Notes: a model not told the origin generated them from the sequence alone. A stretch of 64,000 nt of DNA from Natranaeroarchaeum aerophilus (GCF_023638055.1 NZ_JAKRVY010000001.1:186001-250000); one strand, 5' to 3'; counted from the first letter of the stretch, positions 44,145-58,444 are shown. Made by a program: numbers and translations.

Positions 44145-44831
44145 GTGACAGATAGAACGGAGTTTGTTGGGGTTCGACTCACGCCGGAAGAACGAGAGGA
44201 GTTTGAGAACTTCTTGCGTGACGAGGGCGAATTCAACAGTATGAGCCGATTTTTACGTGTTGCAGCGTACCGATACATGGCTAGTGCAGACGAAGAGTCG
44301 TCGATCGACCCGGAGGAGCTCATTGACGCCGTAGATTCAGCGGTCACTCCGATTTCCGAACGACTAGAAAGAATTGAAGATCATGTCCTCTCGATCGATT
44401 CGAACGTCTCGGACGACGATAACATCGACCGATTAGCACGCGATATCTACTCTTCGCTTCCAGCTCATACCGACACAAATGAACTGCCTGACTTCGGCGA
44501 AATCGGCCAGTTCGAATCTCCTAGTGATTTAGCATTAGCCAAATCGATTTCCACGCCGGATGTCTGGGCGCAGTATTACGACGAAGATCTTGCTGATACA
44601 CGCCGTGCCTGCGCACGGATGCTAGAGTACTATCCAGATGTTAACTACATTGAAGACACGACAGGTGGTGCAGATAGTCACATACCTCGTCACGACGATA
44701 TTGGCGTCGAGGATCCACCAAGCCATACAGATGTGTCGACTGATCAGACCACATCCCAACCTCGGTATCCTGAATCATCCAACCAGGACCGCACCACTGT
44801 GCGACGATACTACAAGGAATCAGGTGACTGA
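44145..44831 (+). CDS. RHH-type protein coupled to integrase
   Basis: The 228-residue protein starts with GTG and has an N-terminal ribbon-helix-helix-like unit (TEFVGVRLTPEEREEFENFL ... MSRFLRVAAYRYM), then an acidic region and a charged, disordered C-terminus. It ends 2 bases before the GTG of the recombinase, so both are made together. It probably acts as a DNA-binding accessory factor (directionality factor or repressor) of the integrase. First gene of the low-GC island. Confidence 0.7.
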   Translation: MTDRTEFVGVRLTPEEREEFENFLRDEGEFNSMSRFLRVAAYRYMASADEESSIDPEELIDAVDSAVTPISERLERIEDHVLSIDSNVSDDDNIDRLARDIYSSLPAHTDTNELPDFGEIGQFESPSDLALAKSISTPDVWAQYYDEDLADTRRACARMLEYYPDVNYIEDTTGGADSHIPRHDDIGVEDPPSHTDVSTDQTTSQPRYPESSNQDRTTVRRYYKESGD

Positions 44832-44833
44832 CT

Positions 44834-45880
44834 GTGCCACCACAATACAAAGCCGTCGAAGAATGTCGCTCGGAAATCAGCCAGTATCTAAGACAGTTGG
44901 ATACAGAGACTGACGACGATAATTCAGAGCTGCGCGATACAAAAAGTACTACCAGATACAAACAGGATCTACGATGGTACGACCACTGGTTGGACGACGC
45001 TGAAGTCAATTCACCGGTAGATGTAACGCCGGCTCAGGCTAATGAAGTTGGCCAGACATTGGCGCGAGAATTCAATGGGACAACTGACTTGTATCGGTGG
45101 GATCGGATAAACGCGTTCCACGATTGGCTAGTGAGAATGGATTATACCAGTTCGAATCCGTTTGAGCGGTGGAACGAGGATAAAGACGAACTATTCGGGT
45201 TCAGCAAGAGCTCCGAACAATCGAGTCGTCTCAAGGAAGCCGAACAGTATGCTGTCTCACAAGAAGAGACACGGGCAATGGAAGAGAACGTAGGGCGAAA
45301 TCGCGTACGAGATCAACTTGTTATACGATTAATTTGGCAGACAGGCCTACGACGCGGCGAAGCGTCAGGATTGGTAATCAGTAACATTGATCGAGAACAG
45401 AGAGAAATAACCGTCCCTGCACCTATTGCTAAAAATGGCAAAGAGAGAGTTGTTGCATATCAGCAGTCACTAGATGGGTTGATAACAGAATGGCTGGATT
45501 ATGGGTATCGGGACGAAAAGGCAGCCACTGCTGATCACTCTCGATTGTTCGTCGGTGAGCGAGGCGCACCACTATCGGGCGAGAGAATCAACGAGATTGT
45601 TATTGATGCCGCTGATGAAGCAGGATTCAATCGCAAAATCTACGCAGACGCTAACGCTCCCATTGACGAAGATGGCGATCGGATTCCCAACAGGTGGCTC
45701 ATAACCGCACACAACATTCGGCACGGATTTGGCACCTACATGATCAACGAAACCGATGCCGGACTTTGGGAGGTGTCTAAGGCTATGGGTCACTCTTCAG
45801 TCAAAATAACTGAACGAATCTACGTCGAAGATGACCCGCGGGCAGGGACAGATCATCTCCACAAGTACGGACCTGATTAA
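44834..45880 (+). CDS. Tyrosine recombinase / integrase
   Basis: The 348-residue recombinase has a SAM-like N-terminal domain (about 35-115) and a catalytic domain with the full set: R173 in TGLRRGEASG, H293-x-x-R296 in HNIRHGFGTY, H320 in MGHSSVKIT and the nucleophile Y330 in RIYVEDD. The start is a GTG immediately after the RHH gene. It should catalyse site-specific integration and excision of the island. No tRNA gene or obvious att duplicate lies within 1 kb, so the borders are unresolved. Confidence 0.88.
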   Translation: MPPQYKAVEECRSEISQYLRQLDTETDDDNSELRDTKSTTRYKQDLRWYDHWLDDAEVNSPVDVTPAQANEVGQTLAREFNGTTDLYRWDRINAFHDWLVRMDYTSSNPFERWNEDKDELFGFSKSSEQSSRLKEAEQYAVSQEETRAMEENVGRNRVRDQLVIRLIWQTGLRRGEASGLVISNIDREQREITVPAPIAKNGKERVVAYQQSLDGLITEWLDYGYRDEKAATADHSRLFVGERGAPLSGERINEIVIDAADEAGFNRKIYADANAPIDEDGDRIPNRWLITAHNIRHGFGTYMINETDAGLWEVSKAMGHSSVKITERIYVEDDPRAGTDHLHKYGPD

Positions 45881-51104: not shown

Positions 51105-51320
51105 GGTGTCGCATTCCGTTTAGCGGCGACCGTTTCAACAAGGTCCCAGTCCCGTTCCTCAGAGCACTATAGTCGTGGAGATCTCCGGCCCACTGTGCAT
51201 ATGCTTCGATTGGGTTGAGGTCGGCCTCAAACATCACAAAACAAACGTACCAGAGCAGTCCGTAACTGCTTGTCTGTGCCTTGGCTAACAGCCAACGTGA
51301 GCACCCAGTTGTGATTAGTG
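51105..51320 (-). pseudogene. Probable transposase C-terminal remnant
   Basis: On the minus strand a frame reads LAKAQTSSYGLLWYVCFVMF, then NPIEAYAQWAGDLHDYSAL and RNGTGTLLKR before a stop. The AKxxTSSYxLxW pattern recalls the C-terminal helices of IS4/ISH3-type transposases, but this is a guess. A more decayed copy of its first part (TTAGCCAAG ... ACAGACAAGCAGT) starts the second long repeat at about 55395, so the fragment is part of what was duplicated. Confidence 0.35.
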
Positions 51321-52310
51321 TCTCACACAGTCACTCAAGTCTCTCGCGTAGGGACCTACCGGATACGCACACCACACGCAAAACTATGTTGAAAGACTGA
51401 TAATTGCCGCACAAGTCCACTCCTATATGACGCTTGATTATAGGACTCCGCCTAAGTCACGGGCCCCAACCTCTGGGGCTAAATGCCTCATCCCATCTAT
51501 ACTGGACACCATTTGCGGAAAATTTGCGGGGGTATACTACCAACAGAACCGCGTATAACAACTCTAGGCCCACTTAGTGGTCGTATAAAGCCGTTAGCTA
51601 CCCTAAGATGAAAACCGGTGTTTTTGGTGTGACATTGAATGGCCGTTAAAACCAATTGGAAAATCAAATGAGAATTGGATAATCGAATGAGCGGAAAGGG
51701 GTGAATTTCTGAAAATCGGCGAATCTGAGTGAGATTGAGAAAGCAGTTGCTCGTTGCTTCAAAACAGAGTGTTAATAACTAATTGGTATTTTAAATGGTT
51801 TTTAGGTAACCGGGGGACAATAGTCGGAAAACGGCTAATGTAATTATTGAATGGATTTGTAGATTCTCGGTGACGTGAGAAAATGACTGTTTTCAGTCCT
51901 CTCCACAAAAGGATCTGAGTTATTAACTCATCGATCAATATCGTCAAGAACCAATCACTTCCCGGAACACAGACCAATTGGTAATTTAAATGGAAACCCA
52001 TTATGTCGTACAGGGGAAGCGGATAATGGAACCAATTGGAATTTTCGATGAAAATTGAATTATTGGGTGACTGAATAGGCGACTCTCCTTTTTTGCAAGA
52101 TCGTGAGCTCCCCACTATTTATTGTCATAATGTTTACGTTGAGAGGTTTGCTTGATCGAGCAAAAAGGAGTGTACAAACCACATTTTCCCTGTGGATATT
52201 CTTATGATTAAAATGTCATATTGGTGTTGATGTGTGGTTCCAAGTGAAATACTTCCGATAAAGATTATAACATATTCTAAAACATTTTGTGTAGAAAGTT
52301 CGAATTTATA
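51264..52310. repeat. Long non-coding repeat unit A with four iterons
   Basis: About 1.05 kb, similar over its whole length to unit B (55386-56455) but with many substitutions. It contains four ~23-bp iterons built on c(c/t)aattgg followed by an A/T-rich half ending in aaatg or gatg: 51650-51672, 51777-51799, 51972-51994 and 52030-52052. A perfect palindrome tgagttattaactca lies at 51917-51931. Identical blocks include ttctcggtgacgtgagaaaa and ttccctgtggatattcttat. A minus-strand frame (51759-52115) exists but is not kept in unit B, so I treat the unit as non-coding. Confidence 0.8.
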
Positions 52311-52409
52311 TGCGTGTGTGTTTTGTGAACGCCCTTGGTGTTAAAATGGGTGGGCCCCTCAAACGGATGTATATGTGCGATCACATGGTCTGCGGGCAGG
52401 TGAGTCGAG

Positions 52410-52550
52410 ATGCCTGAGTGTCATAACTGTGGCGCGCACCTCACTCCGGAGTATGTTCGTGTTTTCGGTGATTCGAGCGGCTCAGTCCCGATCTGTATTC
52501 ATTGTGCACCGAACGCTGAGGCGAGGGATGCCATAGCTGATAATGAGTGA
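52410..52550 (+). CDS. 46-aa zinc-finger protein (DUF7563-like)
   Basis: The product starts MPECHNCGAHLTPEYVRVFG and has a second pair in ICIHC, so four cysteines form a compact ribbon. It resembles the very small haloarchaeal ribbon family DUF7563. It lies ~100 bp downstream of repeat unit A. A 63-residue frame beginning MSDGTSKKFRF overlaps its last codons (52543-52734) but has no visible domain and I do not count it. Confidence 0.65.
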   Translation: MPECHNCGAHLTPEYVRVFGDSSGSVPICIHCAPNAEARDAIADNE

Positions 52551-52758
52551 CGGCACCTCGAAAAAATTCAGGTTCCACGCTGATCGCTCGGCTGATCAGA
52601 ATATACTGTCCTATGGCCCTCCCCAAAGTGATCAATCTGCTTGGCTTCTAAATAACAACTCCTCTGCTGGTTGCTTGTCGACAAGATTACTTGCGGGAGA
52701 ATCGGGGATTGTGCATGACCAAAAGTTCAAATAGGTTATTGCACCGTGTTGAGGTAGG

Positions 52759-52851
52759 ATGAGTCCTCCAGAGATCGCACATCTTCGGGAGGCACTCGAT
52801 CAGGCGGGACACGCAATATACCTTACAGATTTTGATGGGAAGATTCGGTAG
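52759..52851 (+). pseudogene. PAS-domain fragment of a sensor kinase
   Basis: The 30-residue frame MSPPEIAHLREALDQAGHAI followed by YLTDFDGKIR matches the first strand and helix of haloarchaeal PAS sensors (QAGxAIYxTDxDGxI) and stops where YVNPAFE would follow. Same sequence type as the third PAS domain of the kinase at 53541. It is a remnant of a kinase that once followed repeat unit A. Confidence 0.55.
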
Positions 52852-53000
52852 TGCATGCTTCATTTGAGGGCGTATCATAGAATAGAGCAAACGCCCTCCA
52901 GGCTATGTAGTGAACGTTCAGTACAGCGGCCAGTGTGATCTCGCTTTTCGATTCGAAACCCATTGAAGGAACGACAGAATGATTACGGTGGCGAGTCCGT

Positions 53001-53388
53001 CACGTCATTCGGCGGGGTCGTCTGCGTCTTCTCCAGAGGTTGGTGCGTGTAGCGGCGGGCGGAAGTGGGCTCGTGTGTGATCATTAGGATGGCAGTCCCA
53101 ACGGCCTTCCCACGAGGACCCGTCTGGTACTGCTTGCTGCCATGGATGCTGAAGTTGTCTATCTAGAACATCGAATCCGGAGCGAAGTCTGCGTCACTCC
53201 GCTCGGAAAGTAGCCGAGGTCATAGTCAGCGACTACGGTGTTCAGCGTGTACGGGGGCGTGACTGTATATCCTCAAAATCGAGCGATCCGGCCGGTCCTT
53301 CAGTATCGATGGGAGCGGTCGTAGCTGGCTTGCCCGGCGTATCAGGCATCGATGTGGCCGGAAGTGCCGTCTGGGGCTGGGTAGTCAT
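53001..53388 (-). pseudogene. Frameshifted haloarchaeal gene remnant
   Basis: From an ATG at 53388 the minus strand reads MTTQPQTALPATSMPDTPGK, continues in other frames with VVADYDLGYFPSGVTQTSLR and then KQYQTGPRGKAVGTAIL. The pieces follow each other in order and look like one former acidic protein broken by at least two frameshifts. I do not recognise the family. Confidence 0.35.
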
Positions 53389-53540
53389 GTCGTGCTGCGT
53401 CGAGGAGAAACACGTGGATCTGGCCTCTTATTCACCAACCCACGCTAACGTTCTGAGCAGTAGTATATTCTCACAACAGATTTGTATCGTGTGTCATCAG
53501 GGAAGCCAGTATTAATTGTGCCGGGGGCTAAACAGTAGTT

Positions 53541-55289
53541 ATGGCAACGGAATCGGCTCCGGAGTCGTTTTTCATCCACTCAGATCTGGAAATCGTCTTT
53601 GCTAATCCTGCGTTCTGTACACTCGTAGGGATAGAATCCCAACAGCAACTTATCGGCGCGTCAGTTGTCGATCTTGTCACGTCGGACTACCAGTCTTCAC
53701 TCCGGGAGCAAGTGGCACGCATCGAAAATGGGGACGAACCCACTCTTGGAATAACTGCTGAGATCCAAACGTCGTCTAATCAGTCACAGCGTGCTATTCT
53801 CGTGAGTTCACTCGTTGAATGGGACGGCACGGAGCAGGTGCAAACGTCGGTGTTCCCGATTGCTGGGATGGACTCTGACAGTCGTCAACTGCTCTACAAT
53901 GACGCCATGGATGAAGCACCGATCGGTATCACGATTTCGGATCCAGCTCAACCTGATAACCCTCTCGTCTATATTAACGATGGTTTCTGCGAACTCACGG
54001 GCTATCTGCGGGATGAGGTTCTCGGACAGAACTGTCGGTTTCTCCAAGGCGAAGCCACCCGTGGGGAGCCAGTGGCCCAGATGCGAGAAGCGATTGAAGC
54101 CGAAGAGCCCGTCAGCGTTGAGTTACGCAACTACCGAAAAGATGGCTCGATGTTCTGGAACCGTGTCACAATCATCCCGATTCGATCTGACTCCGGAACA
54201 GTCACAAAGTATCTCGGCTATCAGCAGGACATTACCGCCCAGAAGCGATACGAGCAGGATCTCTCGGTGTTTAAACGACAGGCCGAGCAGTCCGAGAAAG
54301 CTATCGTGATCACCGATTCGGATGGGACGATTCAGTACGTAAATCCGGCCTTTGAGCGAGTGAACGGCTACACAGCCGACGAAGCGATCGGTCGGAATCC
54401 ACGGATTCTCAAGTCGGGACAGCATAGCGAGGAGTTCTATGCGGAGTTATGGGAAACGATCACCGCTGGCGATGTTTGGGAAGCAGAGCTGGTAAACAAG
54501 ACAAAATACGGAGAACTCTACGAGGGAAAACACACTATTGCTCCAGTGACAAATCTGGACGGCGACATCACGCATTTTGTAGGGATCGCGGAGGATAGAA
54601 CCGAGGATGTACTCACGACGCAGACGCTTGGTATCCTGAATCGTGTGATGCGACACAACTTACGTAACGCGCTCAATGTGATCGACGGGCACGCAGAGTT
54701 ATTAGAAGATGAGGAACTGGATTCTGAGGCTCGACAGGCGTCGGTCGAAGCGATCCGGGATCGGGCTGCGCTGATGCGGAACGTCGCTGAGAAGACAGCG
54801 GAGATTCGGTCGATCTGGAGTCAAGCCGAAGATAGCGAAAGGTGGGAGCAACTGGATCTCGAATCAGTTTTGCAGACGTACCAGCGACAGTATCCAGATG
54901 CGGAAATTACGTGTCGGCTGGCGGATACAGAGGCTATTCAAGTTCGAAACGCAGAGCTATTCAAGAAAGCCCTTGAGGAGGCAGTCACGAATGCAATCGA
55001 ACATACTGATCGGTCTCCACCTGACGTAACGATTACATTCCACCGCGACCCAGATGACGACCAGTTTCGACTGAGCGTTGCTGATAACGGCCCAGGGATT
55101 TCAGCAATCGAGCGCCAGGCAATCAAGTCAGGCGAAGAGACCCCGCTTGAACACGGTCTCGGAATTGGATTGTGGGTAATGAAGTGGGTTACCACAACAC
55201 TCGGTGGTGAGTTGACGATTACCGACAACGAACCCCGGGGGAGTGTAGTAACGTTTTACCTGCCTACCGGCGATTCGAAGGCCAAATAG
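53541..55289 (+). CDS. LOV-PAS sensor histidine kinase (blue-light type)
   Basis: The 582-residue soluble kinase has PAS1 (about 8-105) and a LOV-type PAS2 (about 120-232). PAS2 holds the flavin-adduct signature GQNCRFLQG (Cys165), the partner NYRKDGSMFWN and the late Gln in GYQQDIT. PAS3 (about 250-355) follows, then HisKA with H372 in RVMRHNLRNAL and an HATPase domain (VTNAIEHTD, VADNGPGIS, GLGIGLWVMKW). All residues needed for FMN binding and cysteinyl adduct formation are present, so it should sense blue light. No response regulator is encoded next to it. A TATA-like gtattaattg lies about 30 bp upstream. Confidence 0.9.
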   Translation: MATESAPESFFIHSDLEIVFANPAFCTLVGIESQQQLIGASVVDLVTSDYQSSLREQVARIENGDEPTLGITAEIQTSSNQSQRAILVSSLVEWDGTEQVQTSVFPIAGMDSDSRQLLYNDAMDEAPIGITISDPAQPDNPLVYINDGFCELTGYLRDEVLGQNCRFLQGEATRGEPVAQMREAIEAEEPVSVELRNYRKDGSMFWNRVTIIPIRSDSGTVTKYLGYQQDITAQKRYEQDLSVFKRQAEQSEKAIVITDSDGTIQYVNPAFERVNGYTADEAIGRNPRILKSGQHSEEFYAELWETITAGDVWEAELVNKTKYGELYEGKHTIAPVTNLDGDITHFVGIAEDRTEDVLTTQTLGILNRVMRHNLRNALNVIDGHAELLEDEELDSEARQASVEAIRDRAALMRNVAEKTAEIRSIWSQAEDSERWEQLDLESVLQTYQRQYPDAEITCRLADTEAIQVRNAELFKKALEEAVTNAIEHTDRSPPDVTITFHRDPDDDQFRLSVADNGPGISAIERQAIKSGEETPLEHGLGIGLWVMKWVTTTLGGELTITDNEPRGSVVTFYLPTGDSKAK

Positions 55290-55385
55290 AGGCCTGTAAA
55301 CATTGTTGGGGCCCCTGCGGGACAGGGTCCTCCCTCAAATAAGGGGAGCACCTTGTCTTGCAAATACTAAGAAATTGAACATACC

Positions 55386-56455
55386 CAAGTAGTCCATTAC
55401 TGCTTGTCTGTACTTGGCTAATAGCTAACGTGATCGCCAAGCTGAAACCGGAGTCTCGAACAATCACTACAAGTTCCTCCCGCAGACGGACCTACCGGAT
55501 ACGCACACCCACATGCAAAATTATATTGACAATCTGATGAGTACAGCGCAAGCCCGCTCCTATATGGCGCTTGAATATAGGACTCCGCTCAAGTCACGGG
55601 CTACATCTTCTGGGGGCTAAATGCCCCATCCCATCTATACCGGACACCAACTGCGGAAATTTTGAGGGGGTATACTACCCGGGCAAACGGATATTACCAC
55701 TTCATAATTGCCTAGAGGGTGTATAATGACTTTAGCTACCCGGGCAGCAAAAACGCCATTTTCGCGTGTCGTCGAACACCCATTGAAAACCAATTGGAAA
55801 ATTAAACGAAAGTTGTAGAATCAACAGAAGTAATCGGGGTAATTTTCCGGAAAATCGGCCAATCTGAGTGAGATAGTGAGAGTGGTTTGTGGCTGCTTCA
55901 AAACGGAGTGTTAATAACTAATTGGTATTTTGAATGATTTTTAGGAAATCAAGTGACAGCAGTGAGAATATGGCTAATGTAATTATTGAATGATTTTTTG
56001 GATTCTCGGTGACGTGAGAAAACGACTGTTATCAACCCTCTCGACAAAACGATCTGAGTTATTAACTCACAGGCCAAAATAGTCAAAAATAAATTACTTC
56101 CCGGGACACAGACCAATTGGTAATTTAAACGAAAACTCCTTATGTCGCACAAGGGAAGGGGACAGTGGAACTAATTGGAATTTTCAATGGAAATTAAAAT
56201 ATTGGGTGACTGAATAGGAGACTATTCTTTTTTTTGCGAGATCGTGAGCTCCCCACCATATATTGTCATGATACTTATGTTGAGGTGTTTGCTTGATCGA
56301 GCTAAAAGGAGTTCACAAACCATATTTTCCCTGTGGATATTCTTATAAGTGGGTTGTTATATTGATGTTACTGTGTGGTTCCAAGTGATATATCTTCGAT
56401 AAAAACCCATAATAACGGCCAAAATATTTCCCGTAGAAGGTTCACATCTATCTAT
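55386..56455. repeat. Long non-coding repeat unit B with four iterons
   Basis: Direct repeat of unit A, 4.1 kb downstream. Its iterons are at 55788-55810, 55916-55938, 56111-56133 and 56169-56191; their start-to-start distances (128, 195, 58) equal those in unit A (127, 195, 58). The palindrome tgagttattaactca recurs at about 56056-56070. Sequence between the iterons has changed at many positions with few insertions or deletions. The unit separates the LOV kinase from the 7TM kinase. No gene within it is convincing. Confidence 0.8.
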
Positions 56456-56644: not shown

Positions 56645-56809
56645 GATCGATCGCTAGTCTAACTAGAAAATACGAACGATGTTCTGAGCGACGGGCAATT
56701 GATACACTACGCGTACCTCGTATTGGAAAAACTCTATACAACAGGGAAATAGTTAGTATAGGAAAACTTTAGGGGTGTTGTAGATAAGATATTGACAATT
56801 AGACTGCTA

Positions 56810-58444
56810 ATGAGTTCTATCTTACTATCTGGGTATGTTGCCGTATTCGGAGTCTCCGCCGTGGCGTGTTTTGTGAGCTTGAGCCAGCTCCCACGAATCC
56901 AGAACACGGATGTACGAGTCGGCTTATTTAGTCTTCTCACAATCTGCGGTGTGTGGGCTGCTGCCCACGTTGGCTACCTTATTATGCCCTCAGCGATGGG
57001 GAAACTCGTATTCTACGTTGCGGGACTGATTGCTGGCATTGCTGCCGTTGGCGCGTGGCTGTATTTTTGCTCTGCATATACAGACCGCAGATATCACCGC
57101 CAACGCTCGTTTCGGTTCCTCGCTGTGATCGTCTTTACTGGGATCGTCCTGCTGAAACTGACAAACCCGGTTCATTCGCTCTATTTCACTACAGAAATCG
57201 TGTCAACGCCATTCTCCCATCTCGCAGTCGATCACGGGCTTCTCCACTGGAGTGTGATGGCACTTGCCTACGCGCTTTCATTCGTTGGGTTCTTCATGCT
57301 CTTCGAGCGGTTCGTCACCGTTGGCTTTGACACTACGCCGGTTGCTATCCTCGTTGGAATCACAGCACTTCCGGTTGTCCTGGATATTCTTGGCAATTCC
57401 AGTCCAGCCCTAGTAGATATGACGTATGAACCGATTGGCGTTGCCGTGTTCGCTGTTGGCGTGCTCTTCGTGTATCGTGACCGGTTTCAGAGACTCAATC
57501 TATCAGACGCTTCGGATCGCCCTGTGATTTTTCTCGACGAAGAGTATCATATCCGAGACTACAATCGTCGAGCACAGGAACTGTTCCCCGTCTTAGAAAA
57601 TTCCATTGACAACCCCCTGTCTGATGTGTCGTCGCAGCTAGCGGATGGACTCCGATCCGAACAGCACATCATTGAATACGTGACAGACACGGAGACACGC
57701 TATTATATCGCGTCAGTAGCCCCATTTACGGCTGGAGAGACCGTAATCGGCCATATCTTCACACTTACTGATGTAACCGAGGCAGAACAGTATCGGCGTG
57801 AATTGGAACGAAAAACAACTAAATTAGAACAATTTGCAAGCGTCGTCTCGCATGATTTGCGGAATCCGTTGAGTGTCGCTCAAGGATACGCTGAATTAGC
57901 GCAAGAGGAGTCTGAGAACGCCGAGGAATACCTGGCGGAAGTCAGGAGGGCCCACACACAGATGGATGAGTTGATTTCAGATCTCCTTACGCTTGCACGG
58001 GAGGGCCAGTCAATCGAAGAGACGCATCCAACCGACGTATCCGATGTTGTCCTGCGGTGTTGGGAAGGTGTCGACACAGCCAATGCAGAACTCGTCGTTG
58101 ACGCCGAGACGACAATTATGGCTGATCCTGACCGACTCGCACAGTTGTTCGAGAATTTGTTCCGGAACGCGGTTGAACACGCAGGGTCTGATGTCACAGT
58201 TACAGTCGGAATACTCTCGGACGGATTTTATGTTTCCGACGATGGGAATGGGATTGCCGAGTCAGATCATGAAGATGTGTTTGAGTATGGGTATTCAACG
58301 ATGGAGGACGGAACTGGATTCGGCCTCTCGATCGTGAAAGAGATTGTTGATGGGCACGGATGGGAAATAACGCTTACAGAAAGCGTTGAAGGCGGTCTAC
58401 GGTTCGAGGTTACTGACGTTGAGTTTGCTGAAGAGCTGGACTAA
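56810..58444 (+). CDS. 7TM-PAS sensor histidine kinase
   Basis: From the ATG at 56810 the product has 544 residues: seven N-terminal helices of the HisKA-7TM type (1-225, starting MSSILLSGYVAVFGVSAVAC), a PAS domain (about 235-335), HisKA with H348 in SVVSHDLRNPL and HATPase (FRNAVEHAG, SDDGNGIAES, GTGFGLSIVKE). A TTG at 56792 is six codons upstream and less likely. The membrane domain probably senses a small ligand or membrane state. The catalytic half is close to that of the kinase at 59164. Confidence 0.9.
   Translation: MSSILLSGYVAVFGVSAVACFVSLSQLPRIQNTDVRVGLFSLLTICGVWAAAHVGYLIMPSAMGKLVFYVAGLIAGIAAVGAWLYFCSAYTDRRYHRQRSFRFLAVIVFTGIVLLKLTNPVHSLYFTTEIVSTPFSHLAVDHGLLHWSVMALAYALSFVGFFMLFERFVTVGFDTTPVAILVGITALPVVLDILGNSSPALVDMTYEPIGVAVFAVGVLFVYRDRFQRLNLSDASDRPVIFLDEEYHIRDYNRRAQELFPVLENSIDNPLSDVSSQLADGLRSEQHIIEYVTDTETRYYIASVAPFTAGETVIGHIFTLTDVTEAEQYRRELERKTTKLEQFASVVSHDLRNPLSVAQGYAELAQEESENAEEYLAEVRRAHTQMDELISDLLTLAREGQSIEETHPTDVSDVVLRCWEGVDTANAELVVDAETTIMADPDRLAQLFENLFRNAVEHAGSDVTVTVGILSDGFYVSDDGNGIAESDHEDVFEYGYSTMEDGTGFGLSIVKEIVDGHGWEITLTESVEGGLRFEVTDVEFAEELD

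Follow-up and report, generated by a model that had tools for sequence, protein, structure and literature searches.

Two diverged non-coding repeats in a genomic island of Natranaeroarchaeum aerophilus as candidate maintenance regions of haloarchaeal integrative elements

The window analysed here is a 64,000-nt stretch of DNA from Natranaeroarchaeum aerophilus (GCF_023638055.1 NZ_JAKRVY010000001.1:186001-250000). It contains a genomic island with a small gene and a tyrosine integrase and, further along, two long direct repeats (units A and B) that flank a PAS histidine kinase gene and are the sole two copies in the host genome. Both units combine a conserved core with a series of short repeats (iterons), the latter located by iteron search, and are classed as class I copies of the element described below. 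The features are as follows:

44145..45880, + strand: small gene and tyrosine integrase of the host island (PF00589, 2.5e-23)
51244..52310, + strand: unit A, whole repeat, class I copy (79% identity to unit B, 9 indels)
51421..51445, + strand: upstream hairpin of unit A, arms TCCTATA..TATAGGA, conserved loop TGRCGCTTGA (from the sequence)
51466..51609, + strand: unit A conserved core (model R3, 99.9 bits)
51475..51489, + strand: core inverted repeat 1, GGGGC-TAAAT-GCCTC (covarying arms)
51497..51537, + strand: core inverted repeat 2, CTATACT ... GGTATAC (covarying arms)
51650..51671, + strand: unit A iteron, slot 1
51777..51798, + strand: unit A iteron, slot 2
51833..51854, + strand: unit A iteron, slot 3, degenerate
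51972..51993, + strand: unit A iteron, slot 4
52030..52051, + strand: unit A iteron, slot 5
55378..56450, + strand: unit B, whole repeat, class I copy (alignment to unit A)
55604..55747, + strand: unit B conserved core (model R3, 114.9 bits)
55788..55809, + strand: unit B iteron, slot 1
55916..55937, + strand: unit B iteron, slot 2
55972..55993, + strand: unit B iteron, slot 3, degenerate
56111..56132, + strand: unit B iteron, slot 4
56169..56190, + strand: unit B iteron, slot 5

Alignment of the two units over 1067 columns yielded 831 identical positions and 224 substitutions (134 transitions and 90 transversions), equivalent to 79% identity over 1055 aligned bases, together with nine indel events of 1-3 nt each (12 nt in total). 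A single 1-nt indel falls between the first and last strong iterons. Substitutions were distributed over the codon phases as 85/75/64 and do not follow codon phase, and no conserved reading frame was seen inside the units, while conserved blocks were clustered, with 346 bases in runs of at least 12 compared with 197 +/- 37 expected by chance (p = 0.0005). Each unit carries four strong iterons at spacings (A/B) of 127/128, 195/195 and 58/58 bp, and a degenerate fifth iteron lies 56 bp past the second strong one, between the second and the third. The iteron pattern search returned 7 matches where 0.1 were expected. The first-pass annotation of this DNA had reported two units alike throughout, with protein frames lost, four iterons at these spacings and almost no indels between them, and all of this agrees with the alignment, which adds the degenerate iteron and places the start of homology (51244 and 55378) slightly earlier.

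When the units were compared by BLASTN with plasmids, with phages and with 540 haloarchaeal genomes, no relatives were returned, whereas profile models, built from the iteron half (R1), the upstream half (R2) and the core as represented by 18 copies (R3), recovered a dispersed set. R1 produced weak matches upstream of parA in contig C19 of the host and in G001, and one more in G269. R2 identified a colinear match in G269 (E 1.6e-9) and copies in 17 of 394 haloarchaeal genomes. At E <= 0.05, R3 had matches in 33 of the 394 genomes, with about 30 places above 31 bits in 23 of the 394, spread over several families; matches below ~25 bits are doubtful and were left out. Full-length matches at 78-91 bits included new copies absent from the model-building set. 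Candidates from R1 (G214, G144, G180 and G362) and R2 (G303, G060 and G165) were dropped because they lacked a full core. No copy was found on a free plasmid among the 8 plasmid parA loci examined. The genome-wide iteron-pair pattern gave 31 matches, mostly in AT-rich bacteria and none with a haloarchaeal record title; it also occurred in one viral contig, and a 16-base motif was found in five viral contigs. The open-access papers searched contained no account of this core or array. A and B belong to a dispersed, apparently undescribed family of haloarchaeal elements.

Ten copies form class I, namely A, B, G294, G039, G273 (twice), G269a, G048, G174 and G272. Their iterons, up to six per copy, lie 3' of the core and all in core orientation, in nearly fixed slots at 39-44, 159-168, 214-225, 354-374, 413-429 and 458-475 nt after the core, with some slots empty in some copies. 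Iteron letters vary by lineage while the slots are kept: A and B carry AAYYAATTGGWAWTTTNAATGR, and G294, G039 and both G273 copies carry YGTTRTAAATARCATA. G272 was fetched by the core model alone, and six iterons of the form TTGTAAATTGAAAATGAATTCC were then found in it de novo, at 45, 161, 216, 356, 413 and 460 nt after the core. A leave-one-out test of absolute position gave p <= 0.00025 for four of six lineages (AB, G294-type, G269a and G174) and was weak for G048 (p 0.20) and G272 (p 0.05), these p values being optimistic throughout because the slot tests treat lineages with shared ancestry as independent. The two weak results arise because the slots of G048 and G272 are shifted by ~6-12 nt; with pooled slots the test is too strict for shifted arrays, and spacings are the better measure. 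Between lineages, spacing differs mainly by ~10-11 bp (116 versus 127; ~139 versus 149), and these steps, few as the cases are, hint that the array may be helically phased. Homologues with freely varying iteron spacing, the condition set in advance for rejecting the first-pass reading, were looked for and not found: letters change and slots stay.

This geometry also bears on a reading of the units as a non-autonomous transposon-like repeat or a decayed coding sequence without function. The units are non-coding, the family is dispersed and two copies sit in one island, all of which would fit such a repeat. However, indels are few, slot geometry is kept in distant lineages, the gene neighbours of the class II copies (below) are consistent, and neither terminal inverted repeats nor target-site duplications were seen by eye, making this the least likely of the explanations considered.

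The core measured 136-149 bp in every one of the 18 copies from which it was cut. Three inverted repeats within it pair despite changes on both arms (75% of cells versus 66% when shuffled and ~40% when slid), with a covariation of 0.270 versus 0.145 in shuffled controls (0/500). Similarly, segment S1 pairs in inverted orientation with S2 (covariation 0.403 versus 0.208, 0/500) and segment S3 is a direct copy of S1 (70% identity versus 46% shuffled, 0/2000), although the core sequences are related and shuffled controls consequently overstate the significance of all these values. The core of A scores below that of B, and its S1/S3 copies are poorer. Upstream of the core, the hairpin stems of G269a, G273b, G048 and G174 have other letters with pairing kept, as judged by eye without a count. 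Concerted change of this kind among the core repeats would be expected of repeated binding sites in double-stranded DNA whose cognate protein has changed. In G269 (G269:C11), two cores occur in tandem, 260 bp apart (L095 758-893 and 1018-1161).

Covarying hairpin arms with conserved loops, and the fact that several cores fold better than shuffled sequences, could alternatively reflect a long structured RNA, as once suggested for these units, or a 5' regulatory RNA for the gene downstream. In an RNA, wobble pairs should be in excess, but the core shows no such excess (G-U 39 and A-C 33, against shuffled means of 50 and 49), and RNA is therefore disfavoured. Moreover, fold scores were similar on both strands, A and B folded unlike one another in single-sequence folding (z -2.65 and -0.05, respectively), RNAalifold yielded 3 pairs only and an Rfam search returned no match, while the presence of one motif in three copies that are complementary to each other is in keeping with repeated sites for a protein. 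An RNA function is thus very unlikely, and this part of the first-pass annotation is not supported.

Class II comprises 19 loci. In each of them (19/19), a resolvase-like gene with the same orientation lies ~20-500 bp downstream; where detected, the iterons number 2-4 copies ~30-65 bp apart. Pfam Resolvase (PF00239) scored above cut-off in one member of the protein family (L098), where the match spans positions 46-116 of the profile only and the conserved catalytic residues are not kept. Across the family, the catalytic serine region at the N terminus is gone and little of the conserved D..R..R motif is left, and the protein ends in a helix-turn-helix. Its AlphaFold model, of low overall confidence (mean pLDDT 65, ~90 or more in the C-terminal helix-turn-helix), matches Tn3/gamma-delta resolvases, a predicted fold match that supports but does not prove the relationship. 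No homologue was found in the N. aerophilus genome. Many class II cores also adjoin a divergent gene (L097 5950-6828; by eye, a helix-turn-helix with a nuclease-like part), which has relatives in L101, L102, L104, L139, L140 and L142; related sequence occurs on 98 haloarchaeal plasmids, where it is often annotated as ATPase or conjugation-type.

The core might instead be a res- or att-like recombination or resolution site, at which an accessory complex of the resolvase-like protein and the iterons would guide an integrase or resolve dimers. It is made of repeated inverted sites, it occurs in tandem in G269:C11, the adjacent protein has a predicted serine-recombinase fold and tyrosine integrases lie near. 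Against this, the class I copies are without the resolvase-like gene, the catalytic serine region is missing and most of D..R..R is lost in the resolvase-like family, and the nearby integrases are of several distant types; a catalytically complete resolvase in cis, as would be expected at a serine-resolvase res site, was not found. We regard such a role as unlikely.

Some copies are linked to ParA. An intact gene pair for ParA and a small partner protein lies beside the G269 copy, and remnants of the partner gene follow the G294 and G273 copies, while parA and its centromere-binding gene are absent beside the window copies. Two copies of the A/B iteron, spaced 56 bp, also precede parA in the host's own contig C19 (L058 2198) and in G001 (L016 / L059), accompanied by a CTCGG.GACG.GAGAA segment that is also present in A and B. 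Just 3' of unit A, window positions 52441-52635 resemble L059 16078-16299 in G001, ~8 kb from the iteron-bearing parA. The partner protein belongs to no Pfam family; 121 haloarchaeal plasmid records carry a gene for it, and this gene follows the ParA gene in 8/8 of the plasmid records examined (L062-L069). These links would suit a centromere-type partition site only, with iterons bound by the small ParA partner, a regulatory or accessory core, and replication starting elsewhere. However, the parA promoters of G294, G272 and G048 lack the iteron of their own array, and ParA is therefore not the general partner of the element; iterons as a general feature of parA promoters were rejected, being found in the host's own genus only. 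In addition, class II has the resolvase-like gene in place of ParA in the stretch examined, and the plasmid parA loci are without the element. A purely partitioning site is accordingly a less probable, though still appreciable, alternative.

In the wider gene neighbourhood, 20 of 28 loci have a tyrosine integrase no more than ~7 kb away, and the small gene and integrase of the window recur in G269 (L097) and G174 (L099) with an element copy 4-5 kb downstream (tblastn 61-82%). Large proteins of primase-helicase type, with DUF5906, D5_N, Pox_D5, PriCT_2 or MCM-type winged-helix domains, are encoded near five loci (L103, L140, L144, L147 and L149), UvrD-type helicases occur in four loci and, at the G174 copy, the end of a PolB gene lies 0.7 kb upstream of the core. 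No known Rep family was found next to A or B or in the scanned proteins, and no recognised replication gene was seen in the window island, which does have an integrase. Two genomes have the element and its integrase immediately behind secY (L091 1494-2966 and L142 1146-2624), a possible shared integration site. The window kinases (53541-55289 and 56792-58444) lie outside the duplicated DNA and had been thought to be duplicated together with the units, which they were not. Homologues of both (66% and 52% identity; L146 8432-10171 and L143 5269-6891) do adjoin class II copies in two other genomes, suggesting that kinases are recurrent cargo of these elements.

Taken together, A and B are best and most simply explained as diverged copies of a cis-acting maintenance region, most likely a replication origin and possibly a partition site, of haloarchaeal integrative plasmid-like elements (probability roughly 0.55). 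Counting against this reading, none of the copies was located on a free plasmid, neither A nor B adjoins a known Rep family, and no homologue of the resolvase-like protein was found in the host genome. The original proposal of a protein-binding array of plasmid replication or partition type, with constrained spacing, is supported by slots that are kept while their letters are replaced. A sequence-specific protein would bind the iterons as a phased array and join with the core in a nucleoprotein complex that serves initiation or segregation. The probable binder in class II is the resolvase-derived helix-turn-helix protein whose gene lies just downstream, and in class I it is probably a protein of the ParA-partner type or another factor; binder-iteron pairs would be exchangeable on a fixed scaffold. 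A and B themselves would be copies duplicated within the genomic island and, because this island is without a recognised replication gene, they may be relics or may work with a binder supplied from another site, such as the C19 parA locus. More tentatively, and as a possibility short of an even chance, the family may represent a so far unrecognised archaeal replicon type, with a catalytically inactive relative of serine recombinases as its initiator or origin binder and an origin that consists of a 145-bp core plus an array whose geometry is kept and whose letters are replaced.

The replication and inheritance of haloarchaeal integrative elements are poorly known, and a core that can be found by profile provides a marker for a large hidden element family. 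The resolvase-like protein is a candidate new initiator family, the combination of kept geometry and exchanged iterons leads one to expect that proteins and DNA sites are matched in pairs and that the array is helically phased, and the units would offer parts for haloarchaeal vectors.

Several known systems share parts of this organisation. Iteron-type bacterial plasmid origins consist of ~20 bp direct repeats in one orientation beside the gene for a DNA-binding protein. The present elements likewise have same-orientation direct repeats of ~20 bp and, in class II, an adjoining DNA-binding protein gene, and they integrate and often carry replication genes. They differ in the wide and uneven class I spacing (~46 to 149 bp, ~430 bp in total), in the conserved core that precedes the array and in having no recognised Rep family of that kind, the adjacent class II protein being serine-recombinase-derived. 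ParABS loci resemble some copies, whose repeat arrays lie close to parA and to a small second gene, with the array iteron shared with the parA promoter in one genus, but most copies are not beside parA and the partner protein has no Pfam family. As in haloarchaeal Orc1/Cdc6-ORB origins, the region is AT-rich, intergenic and contains repeats; a simple motif search found no ORB-like site in the 44-64 kb window island, and no orc gene was seen there. Tn3/gamma-delta resolvases and their res sites are similar in the predicted fold of the class II protein and in a site of several repeats, whereas here the catalytic part is lost and class I is without the protein. The nearest described haloarchaeal case is the rolling-circle SNJ2 / Rep-Arvir origin of pleolipoviruses and plasmids, which measures ~40 bp, lies downstream of the rep gene and combines conserved hairpin-forming DNA with a more variable inverted repeat, the proposed binding site (PMC13107129). 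Compared by that description, both belong to haloarchaeal mobile elements and contain conserved hairpin-forming DNA, but they differ in size, layout and gene, as the present elements pair a 145-bp core with an iteron array and either precede a resolvase-like gene or have no rep at all.
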